10,603 nt of DNA from Sphingobacteriales bacterium (GTDB taxonomy: Bacteria > Bacteroidota > Bacteroidia > Chitinophagales > Chitinophagaceae), in assembly GCA_024640385.1 (NCBI GenBank), contig JAHEFC010000045.1, positions 1-10,603 on the forward strand, written 5' to 3'. Position numbers and translations under genes: made by a program. The notes below the pieces were generated by a model, which was given only the letters and a program-made list of their open reading frames with translations, was not told the DNA's origin and did no database searches. Numbering within the stretch: position 1 is the first letter of the stretch; each line of letters starts with the position of its first letter. This document shows positions 3,799 to 10,300 of the stretch, piece by piece.

Positions 3799-4368
3799 TT
3801 ATTTATAATAGTGGTTACGCTCAATTTCTTCCTTTACGGCATCAGGCACAAGATACCGGATCGATTTACCTTCTTTGATCAACTTACGTATATGGGTAGA
3901 CGAAATTTGCAACAGGGGGGCATTGAGTATTGTTTTCCTGATAGGAAGATCTTCCCGGATGTCAAACCCTGCGCGTTTATATACATAGACAGGATATCGG
4001 CTCATGATCACTTCAGCGTTTTTCCATTTATCCAGGTTCTGCAAGCTATCGCTGCCCATGATTATTGCGAATTCGTGTTCCGGATATTTCTCTTCCAGGT
4101 ATTGGAGGGTGGTGACGGAATAAGATGGTTTAGGAAGACGGAATTCTATATCGGTGGCTTTCAGGGTTTTTTCATCCTCTATGGCCAGCTTTACGAGATG
4201 CAGCCGGTGATATTCGTTGAGCAGAGAATGATTGGTTTTGAATGGATTTTGTGGGGAAACCACGAACCAAACCTGTTGGAGGTCAGTTTCCTGAACCACG
4301 TGGCTGGCTATGATCAGGTGGCCATTATGAATGGGATTGAACGAGCCGAAATAAAGCCCAATTTTCAT
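3799..4368 (-). CDS. nadD: Nicotinate-nucleotide adenylyltransferase
   Basis: A 189-residue cytoplasmic enzyme that joins ATP and nicotinate mononucleotide to make deamido-NAD, the penultimate step of NAD synthesis. The nucleotidyltransferase signature GSFNPIHNGH (8-17) supplies the two catalytic histidines H14 and H17. SPQNPFK (38-44) matches the substrate-binding loop, MGSDS (104-108) the second binding segment, and SSTHIR (156-161) the C-terminal ATP motif. Length is usual for bacterial NadD and nothing is missing. It lies 37 nt downstream of feoA on the same strand, with no terminator between them, so co-transcription from the feoA promoter is likely. It converges on the CHR-family gene. 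Confidence 0.97.
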   Translation of the reverse strand: MKIGLYFGSFNPIHNGHLIIASHVVQETDLQQVWFVVSPQNPFKTNHSLLNEYHRLHLVKLAIEDEKTLKATDIEFRLPKPSYSVTTLQYLEEKYPEHEFAIIMGSDSLQNLDKWKNAEVIMSRYPVYVYKRAGFDIREDLPIRKTILNAPLLQISSTHIRKLIKEGKSIRYLVPDAVKEEIERNHYYK

Positions 4369-4670: not shown

Positions 4671-4678
4671 TATTTTTG
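4671..4678 (+). promoter_or_regulatory. Bacteroidota -7 element (TATTTTTG) of ybeY
   Basis: TATTTTTG matches TAnnTTTG exactly and ends 3 nt before the ybeY ATG, implying a leaderless or nearly leaderless transcript. It points away from the feoA element 18 bp to its left, so each promoter's upstream region overlaps the other's core. The local AT-richness means a chance match is possible. Confidence 0.5.
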
Positions 4679-4681
4679 AAT

Positions 4682-5131
4682 ATGGCAACTATAACATTTC
4701 ATGAATTGACACCTGTTCGCTGGTTTGGTAAACGTCGATTGATGAAAGAGCTGCTGATCGATCTATTCAGGAAAGAAAGAACGCCCCTGGCAGAGATCAG
4801 ATATATATTCTGTACGGATGAATACCTATTGGAGATCAACCGGCAGTTTCTCCAGCACGATGATTATACTGATATCATCACCTTTGATCTGACAGATGCA
4901 TTTACTGGCCAATCCCCGGTTCCAAAGCAAGGCGAGATCTATATTAGTGTAGAGCGGGTTGTAGATAATGCCCGGCAGCTCAATACGTCACGGGAAGAAG
5001 AATTGAGGAGAGTAATGATACATGGTTGCCTCCACTTATGCGGCTATAAGGATAAGTTAAATGAGCAGAAGAGGATAATGCGGAAAAAAGAAGACCAGTA
5101 CCTTAGTCTTTATAAGCGACGTTCCACGTGA
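4682..5131 (+). CDS. ybeY: Endoribonuclease YbeY (16S rRNA maturation)
   Basis: A 149-residue metalloprotein that takes part in 16S rRNA 3'-end processing and ribosome quality control. The conserved DDYTDIITFDL (60-70) and GEIYISVERV (84-93) are present. The metal site reads HGCLHLCGYKD: H114 and H118 are kept, but the third ligand, His in the E. coli HGxLHLxGYDH motif, is Asp124 here. I recall this KDK form as common in Bacteroidota, so it is probably a lineage trait, not damage. The ATG at 4682 is preferred over a TTG two codons earlier because the protein starts MATITF and the TTG lies inside the -7 element. Its stop overlaps the next gene's GTG start by 4 nt (GTGA), indicating an operon with translational coupling. 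Confidence 0.95.
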   Translation: MATITFHELTPVRWFGKRRLMKELLIDLFRKERTPLAEIRYIFCTDEYLLEINRQFLQHDDYTDIITFDLTDAFTGQSPVPKQGEIYISVERVVDNARQLNTSREEELRRVMIHGCLHLCGYKDKLNEQKRIMRKKEDQYLSLYKRRST

Positions 5132-5135
5132 AACA
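5120..5135. promoter_or_regulatory. parS: Candidate parS centromere site 1
   Basis: The 16-mer CGTTCCACGTGAAACA matches the classic parS TGTTTCACGTGAAACA at 14 of 16 positions, and fits GTTYCACGTGRAAC exactly. ParB would nucleate here and spread, recruiting SMC and ParA for origin segregation. The site contains both the ybeY stop and the GTG start of the next gene. ParB binding is inferred from sequence only. Confidence 0.7.
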
Positions 5136-5784
5136 TATTGTTTTAGGTTTATTTCTGCTCATGTCGGCCCATGGGTTTACCCAGGGATCGATGGTTTTAA
5201 ATAGTAAATCCTTTCTTACCCAGCGTAAGATGGACAGCTCTGTTTCCCTTGCGCTGCAAAATCAGTCTTTATACAACTTATTGAGCCGTAGTGGCCAGGA
5301 ATTGGCCTATTGGGTGAATCTAATGCGAAAAGACCCAAAGGCTTTTGGAGACCAATATGTAGCTCGATTCCTCGAGCAGTTCCCGGAAGCGATTTCCCCG
5401 GAATCCAGGGAATTAACAGCACGCCTGGCAAGTACTCCGCCACTGCCCCAGTTAATCATTTCTTCAGTACTTGTAGGAACTGCCCAGGACCACGCCAATT
5501 ATCTGGCCGAAAAGGGGAGGATCAGCCATACCGGGAGAGGTGGTAAGAGTTTTGTCCGCCGGATGAATGAGGCAGGTATTACCGAATGTGCCGGGGAGAA
5601 CATATTTGATGGGCAAGATGATGCCCTGATGGTGCTGATTCTATTATTAATTGACAAAGGTGTGCCCGGTGCAGGCCACCGCGAAGCGCTATTAAATCCC
5701 ACATTCAACTCCATCGGGATCGGCGTGGCCTCGATGGATTCCCCAAGAATGGTTTTTGTGCAACAGTTCGGATGTCAGCTATAG
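5128..5784 (+). CDS. Secreted CAP-domain (SCP/PR-1-like) protein
   Basis: A 218-residue protein with a Sec signal peptide (residues 1 to about 19, MKHIVLGLFLLMSAHGFTQ) and one CAP domain (about 50-218). The CAP cavity residues are visible: H122 (QDHANYLA), H134 (ISHTG), E157 (AGENI) and H184 in GHREALLNP (183-191), with a closing FVQQFG. Bacterial CAP proteins are exported and of mostly unknown biochemical role; some are linked to lipid or peptide binding. The start is GTG, inside parS site 1 and overlapping the ybeY stop by 4 nt. The next in-frame ATG (residue 12) would destroy the signal peptide. The stop codon is followed at once by the heptad-repeat hairpin. A secreted protein between two RNA-modification genes is unlikely to share their function. 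Confidence 0.88.
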   Translation: MKHIVLGLFLLMSAHGFTQGSMVLNSKSFLTQRKMDSSVSLALQNQSLYNLLSRSGQELAYWVNLMRKDPKAFGDQYVARFLEQFPEAISPESRELTARLASTPPLPQLIISSVLVGTAQDHANYLAEKGRISHTGRGGKSFVRRMNEAGITECAGENIFDGQDDALMVLILLLIDKGVPGAGHREALLNPTFNSIGIGVASMDSPRMVFVQQFGCQL

Positions 5785-5840
5785 CAGGTGGCAGGTTGCC
5801 ACCTGCGACCCGCCATCTGCAACCTGCAACCTGCAACCTG
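5784..5840 (+). repeat. Heptad repeat array with a perfect 10-bp hairpin
   Basis: Eight 7-mers in register: GCAGGTG, GCAGGTT, GCCACCT, GCGACCC, GCCATCT and three GCAACCT, ending in G. The first part folds perfectly: GCAGGTGGCA (5784-5793), loop GGT, TGCCACCTGC (5797-5806). It begins on the last base of the CAP stop codon and runs into parS site 2. It is the same repeat family as 1179-1354. It probably serves as a terminator, though there is no U-tract. Confidence 0.8.
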
Positions 5841-5854
5841 TTTCACGTGGAACA
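5839..5854. promoter_or_regulatory. parS: Candidate parS centromere site 2
   Basis: TGTTTCACGTGGAACA differs from the Bacillus-type parS TGTTTCACGTGAAACA at one base, and from the Pseudomonas-type TGTTCCACGTGGAACA at one base. It starts inside the last heptad of the repeat array and ends 2 bp before the mnmG -7 element, so bound ParB would cover the promoter's upstream region. Translated in the mnmG frame it would read FHVEH, a string I recall from over-extended MnmG annotations in several phyla. Confidence 0.8.
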
Positions 5855-5870: not shown

Positions 5871-7739
5871 ATGTTCTCAAATTATGATGTGATTGTTGTT
5901 GGAGCCGGCCATGCTGGTTGTGAAGCCGCCGCTGCGGCAGCCAATATGGGTAGTCGTGTGTTGCTGGTGACGATGAACTTGCAGACTATTGCCCAAATGA
6001 GCTGCAATCCTGCCATGGGTGGCATTGCGAAGGGCCAGATCGTGAGGGAGATCGACGCTATGGGCGGGTATTCCGGGATTGTGACCGACCAGACCATGAT
6101 CCAATTCAGGATGTTGAACAGGTCGAAAGGTCCTGCCATGTGGAGCCCCAGGGCGCAAAGCGACAGGATGCTATTCTCCCAAAGATGGCGGGAAATGCTG
6201 GAGGCGACCCCAAATATCGACTTTTACCAGGACATGGTGAAGGGTTTGTTGGTGAAGGATGGCCGATGTACCGGAGTGATCACGGGATTGGGACATCATA
6301 TTGAAGCCAAGGCAGTTATATTGACCAATGGGACTTTCCTGAATGGGCTTATCCATATCGGGGAGAAACAATTTGGAGGGGGCCGGATGGCCGAAAAGGC
6401 CGCTACTGGCATAACTGAGCAATTGGTGGAACTTGGATTTGAAAGCGACCGCCTTAAAACGGGCACTCCTCCCAGGATCGACGGCAGATCCCTGGACTAC
6501 TCTAAAATGGAAGAACAGAAAGGGGATCAGGAGGTCACCGGCTTTTCTTATTTGGATCTGCCCCGGATCAACGGATCCAATCAGAAAAGCTGCTGGATTA
6601 CGTATACCGACCAATCCGTGCATGATATCTTAAAAACCGGCTTTGACAGGAGCCCCATGTATGCCGGCAGAATTGAAGGCGTAGGCCCCAGGTATTGCCC
6701 CAGCATAGAAGATAAGATCAACCGATTCGCAGAGAGGGAAAGACATCAACTGTTCGTGGAACCAGAAGGATGGAATACAATAGAGATCTATGTCAATGGT
6801 TTTTCTACCTCCTTACCTGAGGAAGTCCAGTTTGCCGCCTTGAGAAAAGTTCCCGGTTTTGAAAATTGTAGGATGTTCAGGCCGGGCTATGCCATTGAAT
6901 ACGACTATTTCCCGCCCACTCAGCTTCATTACTCGTTGGAAACCAAGCAGTTAGAAAATCTGTTCTTTGCCGGGCAGATCAATGGGACCACAGGTTACGA
7001 GGAAGCCGCCTGCCAGGGCCTGATGGCCGGAATGAATGCACACCTTAAAGTGCAGGGTGAAGAGCCCCTGATCCTTAAAAGAAGCGAGGCATATATTGGG
7101 GTACTGATCGACGACCTTATCAGCAAGGGCACCGAAGAGCCTTATCGCATGTTTACCAGCCGGGCAGAGTTTAGAACACTTCTGCGGCAGGATAATGCCG
7201 ATTTAAGGTTGACGGAAAAGTCTAATATGTTGGGATTGGCAAGCCGTGAGAGGCTGGAGGCCGTAAAATCCAAGCAGGAAGCAGTGGAGCGGATCAAACG
7301 GGTTATGAATGAGCTGACTATTGAGCCTGCTGAAATTAATGCCTTTTTACAGCAAAAAGATTCCGCTTCACTTACTCAAAAACAGAAACTAGGGCAGATC
7401 ATCCTAAGGCCAAATATTTCCCTGGAAGAGTTAACGACTGAAATTCCATCGATAAAGGCGGTTTTTGAAAGAGAAAACAAGGAACACTTGCAACAAGCCG
7501 AGATCCAGGTGAAATACGACGTATATATAGGCAAGGAGAAAGAACTCGTATCACGCATGAACCAAATGGAGGAACTGGAGATCCCCACCACCTTCGATTA
7601 TAAAAAAGTCCAGGCCATCAGTGCGGAAGCGCGTGAAAAACTCAACCGCATCAAGCCACGTACACTGGGGCAGGCATCCAGGATATCGGGCATCAATCCC
7701 AGTGATGTCCAGATTCTTATGGTTTACATGGGTCGATGA
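5871..7739 (+). CDS. mnmG: tRNA uridine-5-carboxymethylaminomethyl(34) synthesis enzyme MnmG (GidA)
   Basis: A 622-residue FAD enzyme that, with the GTPase MnmE, installs the carboxymethylaminomethyl group on U34 of certain tRNAs, using methylene-THF. The N-terminal Rossmann motif GAGHAG (11-16) binds FAD. CNPAMGG (45-51) includes the conserved active-site cysteine, KTGTPPRI (196-203) and GPRYCPSIEDK (272-282, second key cysteine C276) are intact, and GQINGTTGYEEAACQG (368-383) closes the flavin site. A helical C-terminal domain for MnmE and tRNA binding follows. I chose the ATG at 5871: the 33 extra codons back to 5772 translate the repeat array, parS and the promoter, and the next residues (YDVIVVGAGHAG) are the usual start of the family. 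Length matches E. coli MnmG (629). The gene often sits near the replication origin. Confidence 0.97.
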   Translation: MFSNYDVIVVGAGHAGCEAAAAAANMGSRVLLVTMNLQTIAQMSCNPAMGGIAKGQIVREIDAMGGYSGIVTDQTMIQFRMLNRSKGPAMWSPRAQSDRMLFSQRWREMLEATPNIDFYQDMVKGLLVKDGRCTGVITGLGHHIEAKAVILTNGTFLNGLIHIGEKQFGGGRMAEKAATGITEQLVELGFESDRLKTGTPPRIDGRSLDYSKMEEQKGDQEVTGFSYLDLPRINGSNQKSCWITYTDQSVHDILKTGFDRSPMYAGRIEGVGPRYCPSIEDKINRFAERERHQLFVEPEGWNTIEIYVNGFSTSLPEEVQFAALRKVPGFENCRMFRPGYAIEYDYFPPTQLHYSLETKQLENLFFAGQINGTTGYEEAACQGLMAGMNAHLKVQGEEPLILKRSEAYIGVLIDDLISKGTEEPYRMFTSRAEFRTLLRQDNADLRLTEKSNMLGLASRERLEAVKSKQEAVERIKRVMNELTIEPAEINAFLQQKDSASLTQKQKLGQIILRPNISLEELTTEIPSIKAVFERENKEHLQQAEIQVKYDVYIGKEKELVSRMNQMEELEIPTTFDYKKVQAISAEAREKLNRIKPRTLGQASRISGINPSDVQILMVYMGR

Positions 7740-8810: not shown

Positions 8811-8895
8811 ATTAGAGAGGAAGAGAGGCGGACAGTCAGAGAGAAAAAATTGGAAACTCTTCCTCTCTGACTGTCCGCCTCTCTTCCTCTCTAAT
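8811..8895. terminator. Perfect 33-bp-arm hairpin between convergent genes
   Basis: The arms 8811-8843 and 8863-8895 are perfectly complementary, with a 19-nt spacer (8844-8862). The element begins on the base after the cytochrome stop codon and ends one base before the stop of the opposing gene, filling 85 of 86 bp. It is GA-rich on the plus strand left arm and belongs with the imperfect hairpins at 206-283 and 10222-10297. Role as bidirectional terminator is inferred from position and fold. Confidence 0.85.
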
Positions 8896-9597: not shown

Positions 9598-10224
9598 ATG
9601 TACACTCCAGAGGAACTGATGAAATTATTTCCGATGTTCGATACCGAGCTTGCCCGTTATATTTCCACGATCGGTGAAAGCAAAACTTTTGAAGAAGGGT
9701 CGATAATGATGAAGACTGGTCAGTACTTCCGGGCCACCATGCTCATTATCAGCGGGAAAGTTAAATTGTACAGGGAGGGGGAGGATGGGGGTGAATTCTT
9801 TATGTACTTTCTTGAAAGGGGAAATGCCTGCGCATTAAGTATGATCTGTGCTACCCGTAACCAGGCAAGTGAGATCATGGCCGTGGCCGTGGAAGAAACG
9901 GAAGTGCTGATGATCCCGATAAGTTACATGGACGAACTGATGACCAAGTATAAGGGCTGGTATTATTTCGTGCTGGAAACCTACCGCTCAAGGTTTGAAG
10001 AGCTGCTGGTAGTGATCGACAATATCGCATTCAAGAACATGGATGAAAGACTGGACTGGTACCTGAAAAGACAATCTGAAAAGATCGGCAAGCACATCAA
10101 TCTAACCCACCAGCAAATTGCAAACGACCTGAATTCTTCCCGGGAGGTGATCTCCAGGCTGCTGAAGAAAATGGAAATTAATAAGATGGTCATCCTGCAT
10201 AGAAACTCTATTGAGCTGGTATAA
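9598..10224 (+). CDS. Crp/Fnr family transcriptional regulator
   Basis: A 208-residue dimeric DNA-binding regulator. The N-terminal cyclic-nucleotide-binding-type beta roll spans about 15-115, a dimer helix about 118-145, and a winged helix-turn-helix about 150-208. The HTH reads THQQIANDLNSSREVISRLLKKME (170-193); R182, E183 and R187 align with CRP R180, E181 and R185, which read GTGA half-sites. The region where cAMP-binding CRP has its GE...R-S signature is instead GNACALSMICATRNQASE (75-92), so cAMP is probably not the signal. Cys78 and Cys84 sit there and could make it thiol- or redox-responsive; no Fnr-type N-terminal cysteine cluster exists. Downstream lie a hairpin, a CRP-like operator and a TauE/SafE transporter gene, which is the likely target. 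Confidence 0.92.
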   Translation: MYTPEELMKLFPMFDTELARYISTIGESKTFEEGSIMMKTGQYFRATMLIISGKVKLYREGEDGGEFFMYFLERGNACALSMICATRNQASEIMAVAVEETEVLMIPISYMDELMTKYKGWYYFVLETYRSRFEELLVVIDNIAFKNMDERLDWYLKRQSEKIGKHINLTHQQIANDLNSSREVISRLLKKMEINKMVILHRNSIELV

Positions 10225-10297
10225 GAGAGTCAAAAAGCCGGAACGTCAGAGAGTAAGAATTCTCACTCTCTACCTCTCTTTCTCTCTGCCTCTCTAA
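10222..10297 (+). terminator. Imperfect GA/CT-rich hairpin after the regulator gene
   Basis: The arms 10222-10257 and 10262-10297 pair at 24 of 36 positions around an AATT loop. The stem starts with the regulator's stop codon. It is the third member of the family seen at 206-283 and 8811-8895, here between two genes on the same strand, so it probably separates their transcripts. Confidence 0.6.
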
Positions 10298-10300
10298 CTA

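Follow-up and report, generated by a model that had tools for sequence, protein, structure and literature searches.

Two parS sites between ybeY and mnmG as the probable chromosomal centromere of a Chitinophagaceae bacterium, and a candidate replacement in relatives without parS

Two palindromes were found at positions 5120-5135 and 5839-5854 of the window, i.e. the whole stretch of 10,603 nucleotides analysed here, and very probably represent the chromosomal parS centromere of a Chitinophagaceae bacterium, of the ordinary ParABS type. This reading is supported by the uniqueness of the two sites, the presence of a ParB gene, the conservation of the ybeY-mnmG location and the switch of the GC skew observed at or near it in relatives. 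We infer binding, clamp loading, segregation and an own origin close by from the known family: ParB dimers would load as CTP clamps onto both parS sites and then spread across the ybeY-mnmG region, while ParA would move the origin-proximal complex, so that sister origins part first.

The two parS sites and their surroundings

Both cores were found where the sequence-only reading had placed them, at a spacing of 719 bp. Site 1 (5120-5135, no strand, CGTTCCACGTGAAACA) contains the 14-mer core GTTCCACGTGAAAC at 5121-5134, and site 2 (5839-5854, no strand, TGTTTCACGTGGAACA) the core GTTTCACGTGGAAC at 5840-5853; read from the sequence, the core of site 1 equals that of site 2 in opposite orientation. 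When the outer bases were included, site 2 fitted the 16-mer TGTTYCACGTGRAACA at 16/16 and site 1 at 15/16 positions (first base C), and no other place in the genome came within one mismatch of this 16-mer. The pattern GTTYCACGTGRAAC was scanned for in the whole draft assembly (4,084,565 bases, i.e. 4.08 Mb, in 585 contigs, 94.17% complete). Only 2 matches were obtained, both in the window; the sites are adjacent and not scattered, as had been anticipated. The reversed pattern, used as a control, gave 0 matches in the whole assembly. From base composition, 0.00015 exact matches were expected in the window, in agreement with the earlier estimate of about 0.00016, and 0.0585 in the genome. Beyond the two sites no core match at up to 2 mismatches was found in the window, and 200 dinucleotide shuffles of the window yielded a mean of 0.11 matches at this threshold and never reached two. 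The idea of a hybrid between Bacillus-type and Pseudomonas-type parS turned out not to be needed, as different Y/R forms of parS were found side by side in relatives.

Site 1 is located on the end of ybeY (endoribonuclease YbeY, 4676-5131, + strand, Pfam PF02130, E 2.5e-26), the left border of the conserved interval. Site 2 was placed between a CAGGTTGC-type repeat and the start of mnmG (gidA, 5871-7739, + strand, Pfam PF01134, E 4.9e-165), the right border, with the ATG 16 bp further on. The earlier statement that the sites bracket one gene holds in so far as a gene for a CAP-domain protein (PF00188, 5128-5784, + strand, Pfam E 3.3e-12) lies between them, but the bracketing is not a clean one, since site 1 overlaps both the GTG start of this gene (5128) and the ybeY stop codon (TGA, 5129-5131). 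CAP homologues were found in the ybeY-mnmG interval of several relatives (L024, L091, L177, L179), and the gene is probably a passenger. A nadD-like cytidylyltransferase gene (3799-4368, - strand, Pfam PF01467) recurs left of ybeY, with homologues in L024-L028 and other loci. Clusters of a GCAGGTT/AACCTGC repeat were observed in the window at about 1179-1340 and 5785-5838, the latter leading straight into parS site 2. Long intergenic inverted repeats rich in GAGAGG/CCTCTC were noted by eye at about 8815-8895 and 10222-10300; these are perhaps terminators or repeat elements.

A parB gene, presupposed by the sequence-only reading, is present. The genome encodes one ParB_N protein (E 1.1e-33), and most relatives likewise encode a single one. 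It is a 305-residue ORF on another contig than the parS sites. At this locus the contig end cuts off the upstream neighbour and no ParA-like ORF was seen, which places it among the 5/30 examined ParB loci of this kind; in the other 25/30, a ParA-like ORF with deviant Walker motif adjoins ParB.

Conservation of the locus and position of the origin

The parS pattern was detected in 225 of 298 genomes of the host's order, mostly in two copies, and in 363 of 395 genomes of the phylum, while the reversed pattern reached at most one copy per genome in the order. Thirty order loci were viewed, taken from the families first in the list, with family f18 not among them; mnmG was found at most 1.5 kb away in 29 of these and ybeY in the 30th. 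Of 28 loci that the phylum scan was the first to supply, and among which order genomes recur, 22 hold mnmG, the six without it being five of f18 and one of f29. In f18, a family of the order, exact parS is present, yet apart from mnmG in 5/5 loci viewed (L180-L184). The location of parS at ybeY-mnmG is widespread, not universal. The mnmG region of one f18 genome (G173, region L094) was also seen, with exact parS not beside mnmG.

Among the order genomes, 73 have no exact site; for 53 of these the region upstream of mnmG was retrieved. One-mismatch parS sites were present there in 31/53, often paired and often altered symmetrically or in step (TGTTCCACATGGAACA twice, TGTTCCACGGGGAACA three times), as expected for a site co-evolving with its protein. 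One further genome without exact site carries TGCTCCACGTAGAGCA four times at three mismatches upstream of mnmG. The remaining 22/53 comprise G289, 13 genomes with the new element described below, and 8 in which no clear site was seen. Lineage-specific drift of parS inside the same interval was observed in L067-L089 (genus code g63 and others), with the forms TGTTCCACATGGAACA, TGTGCCACGTGGCACA, TGTTCCACGGGGAACA in three and TGCTCCACGTAGAGCA in four copies, which suggests co-evolution with ParB. In L034, L035 and L036 an additional exact parS lies within the mnmG coding sequence, 381 bp past the mnmG match start.

The assembly of the bacterium itself is in too many pieces to be plotted for skew. 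Evidence for the origin was taken from relatives, and 20-kb stretches were sampled in four single-contig genomes (G107 and G297 with n=20, G293 and G287 with n=10). In G107, stretches to the left, as far as 0.63 Mb, have negative skew and those from 0.633 Mb onwards positive skew, and parS is at 0.631 Mb; a second switch at 2.15-2.31 Mb is about antipodal, and 1/20 stretches ran against the trend. In G297, the sign turns within 2.22-2.227 Mb, an interval that contains mnmG (2.224 Mb); two stretches are of opposite sign, both weak. For G293 the limits of the switch are 2.92 and 3.21 Mb, and parS is at 3.231 Mb; for G287 they are 4.03 and 0.10 Mb on the 4.10-Mb contig, and parS is at 4.042 Mb, the second switch of G287 (0.92-1.30 Mb) not being antipodal. 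Windows of 5 kb beside the locus showed mixed skew sign in the three relatives viewed that finely. The proposal of a centromere region of the chromosome gained support from parS at ybeY-mnmG together with the skew switch at or near this interval in four relatives. The use of dnaA as a guide to the origin had to be given up: in 12 single-contig family members the distance between dnaA and parS or mnmG amounts to 0.43-1.94 Mb, corresponding to 12-43% of the contig if circular (three lengths rounded). Judged by skew, it is mnmG-parS, not dnaA, that marks the origin in the relatives sampled. For G107, dnaA was located at 2.54 Mb of 3.34 Mb (L097-L116), 0.2-0.4 Mb from the skew-defined terminus. 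Inside the window there is neither a sign change of the skew (left +0.104, right +0.055) nor a strict DnaA box TTWTNCACA, which speaks against the origin reading. In the accessible part of a Hi-C study on 12 gut species including Bacteroides caecimuris, most parS sites group at the origin; skew and parS had been used jointly to call that origin (PMC10197239). For many Bacteroidota chromosomes in which dnaA cannot serve this purpose, the arrangement ybeY-parS-mnmG is an origin landmark that helps to orient drafts and to choose sites to label or pull down.

Other explanations of the two palindromes were considered. They might be operators of a CACGTG-reading transcription factor controlling the CAP gene and mnmG, each overlapping a gene start or standing immediately ahead of one; this is very improbable, as no further copies exist in the genome, the sites stay in ybeY-mnmG where the intervening gene is missing (e.g. 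L025, L028), and the parS consensus is widely conserved together with ParB. Noc sites are numerous and scattered, while only two adjacent sites were found here, and a single ParB_N protein is encoded in the genome and in most relatives; it is therefore very improbable that the palindromes belong to a Noc-like ParB paralogue acting in nucleoid occlusion instead of the segregation ParB. In favour of it, Noc is a ParB paralogue with a site two bases off parS, according to the accessible text of one report (PMC7333895). Chance palindromes, or relics which ParB no longer binds, are just as hard to credit: with 0.06 expected in the genome a single match would not be very strange, but two were found within 719 bp and none elsewhere, in a place conserved across the order.

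Relatives without parS

In 14 no-site genomes of the family, no parS at up to 1 mismatch was found in the fetched interval upstream of mnmG. The 12-mer GTTCCACGAATC recurs in 7/14 of these intervals (12 copies in total), and 13/14 of the genomes have an ORF of about 205 residues between ybeY and mnmG. Leaving aside the genome of the window, 84 family genomes had been sampled; a profile search in 80 of them found this ORF in the 13 just named and nowhere else. The carriers form a patchy subset of the family. Whole-genome matches to canonical parS were detected in 0/13 genomes with the gene versus 54/67 without it (Fisher p 3.3e-8). When sites with one mismatch at the locus were added, the figures are 0/13 versus 66/67 (p 4e-14); for the 54 exact-site genomes this count relies on the genome scan, and not every one of them was inspected at the locus. 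In a ParB tree with 29 proteins, the state changes nine times by parsimony. In six independent pairs on well-supported branches, absence of parS tracks the gene (5.9/6 over random pairings; sign test on six pairs, p 0.031-0.0625). G289 has neither parS nor the gene and carries a three-mismatch form of the element.

A second scan was directed at named genomes, and the best 80 of 100 matching loci with the gene were used, overlapping in part with the genomes above. They come from Ferruginibacter, Sediminibacterium, Flavisolibacter, Foetidibacter, Pseudobacter and records labelled only Chitinophagaceae, Chitinophagales or Bacteroidetes. Loci classed as having the element and the HNH-like gene, without parS, are L194-L273 as well as L037, L040, L042, L043, L047-L052, L055, L056 and L061. 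In the 80 named loci mnmG was found in 80, ybeY in 74, exact parS in 0 and one-mismatch parS in 2, the parS scan of this set covering the loci only and not whole genomes. The element was detected at up to 4 mismatches in 78/80, with at least 2 units in 71; the two loci without it start at the gene, the upstream part missing. Across the same 490,569 bases it gave 155 matches versus 5 for the reversed element. The consensus from 150 units is GTTCCACGAATCACAGTTTC-N5-GAAACAT, roughly 30 bp long, and starts with a half-parS heptamer, followed after a spacer by a parS-like palindrome whose centre measures 5 bp where that of parS has 4 bp. Units are arranged in direct tandem or head to head, and in L219, L224 and L255 the gene is inverted, with elements then at both its ends. 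Genome-wide, at up to 1 mismatch, the element is confined to the ybeY-mnmG locus, where 11/13 carriers have it; the other 2/13 have it at the locus with two or three mismatches, and 0/17 non-carriers searched have it at up to 1 mismatch. A ParA-like ORF adjoins ParB in 12/13 carriers, and no carrier-specific change was seen in the helix-turn-helix stretch of their ParB. P. aeruginosa ParB binds the half-parS heptamers GTTCCAC and GTTTCAC, as described in the accessible part of that study (PMC10419367), which makes loading of ParB on the composite element of the relatives plausible.

For the encoded protein, the first member of the alignment had no Pfam or NCBIfam match, and the 62 members gave scattered weak family matches only (HNH_4 in 2/62, best E 0.0033; HNH in 1/62, E 0.019). 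No match to PDB sequences was obtained. A single-sequence search returned 1503 homologues, and the names given among the 120 listed read "hypothetical protein". The AlphaFold model (pLDDT 86.5) resembles viral and phage HNH proteins, with an intron-encoded endonuclease on top (E 3.1e-8), while no solved structure matched it at E <= 0.001. From this model, an HNH fold is predicted for the gene product of the parS-less relatives. The presumed catalytic residues (H-N-N/H), whose assignment is by eye, for N110 above all, are H78 in 60/62, N101 in 62/62 and N110 in 33/62 members; as the third residue occurs in just 33/62, some members may bind DNA without cutting.

That the centromere function has been replaced in some form in the parS-less relatives is a tentative conclusion, a little short of an even call. 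With similar caution, and giving it slightly less than even weight, we suggest that in part of the Chitinophagaceae parS was replaced repeatedly at this origin locus by a composite-element centromere (half-parS plus GTTTC-N5-GAAAC, ~30 bp, usually two units, tandem or inverted) together with the gene for an HNH-like DNA-binding protein; retained ParA/ParB would load there, and the protein might be a co-factor or the agent that drove parS out. Several versions are possible. ParB could have its new loading site in the element and its partner in the HNH-like protein. The gene could also be a selfish endonuclease homing into parS, with the element as a cut-resistant scar; with regard to homing, mnmG was found in 80/80 gene-bearing loci and nine parsimony state changes were counted. 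Alternatively, the HNH-like protein might itself be a new centromere-binding protein in its own right. Few bacterial DNA sites are conserved as strongly as parS. From a lineage that keeps ParA and ParB but has no parS one could learn how centromeres are exchanged, and test whether a partner protein or split half-sites can re-target the loading of ParB.

Comparison with known systems

The window resembles the ParABS systems with origin-proximal parS of P. aeruginosa, B. subtilis and Caulobacter in the 16-bp palindrome, the clustered copies and the one ParB; the ParA-like neighbour of ParB, seen in most relatives examined, and the origin-proximal position by skew in relatives extend this likeness. 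Unlike in these systems, the sites lie between ybeY and mnmG, with parB and dnaA elsewhere, and the window genome has two sites, not many. The half-parS heptamer of P. aeruginosa also opens the putative replacement element of the relatives; in the accessible part of that work, however, half-parS are scattered heptamers (PMC10419367), whereas at the origin locus of the relatives there is a composite of ~30 bp, mostly as a pair. For a ParB-family site shifting through few changes, Noc and its NBS provide a precedent, as far as the accessible text goes (PMC7333895). The relatives differ from it in having a composite element, not a two-base shift, and a ParB helix-turn-helix without carrier-specific change. 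WhiA belongs to another endonuclease family, LAGLIDADG, whereas the gene of the relatives resembles those of HNH proteins and is linked to the centromere locus. As a regulator related to homing endonucleases, WhiA is, according to the accessible part of one report, a precedent for a homing-endonuclease fold controlling division and segregation genes (PMC3781837).
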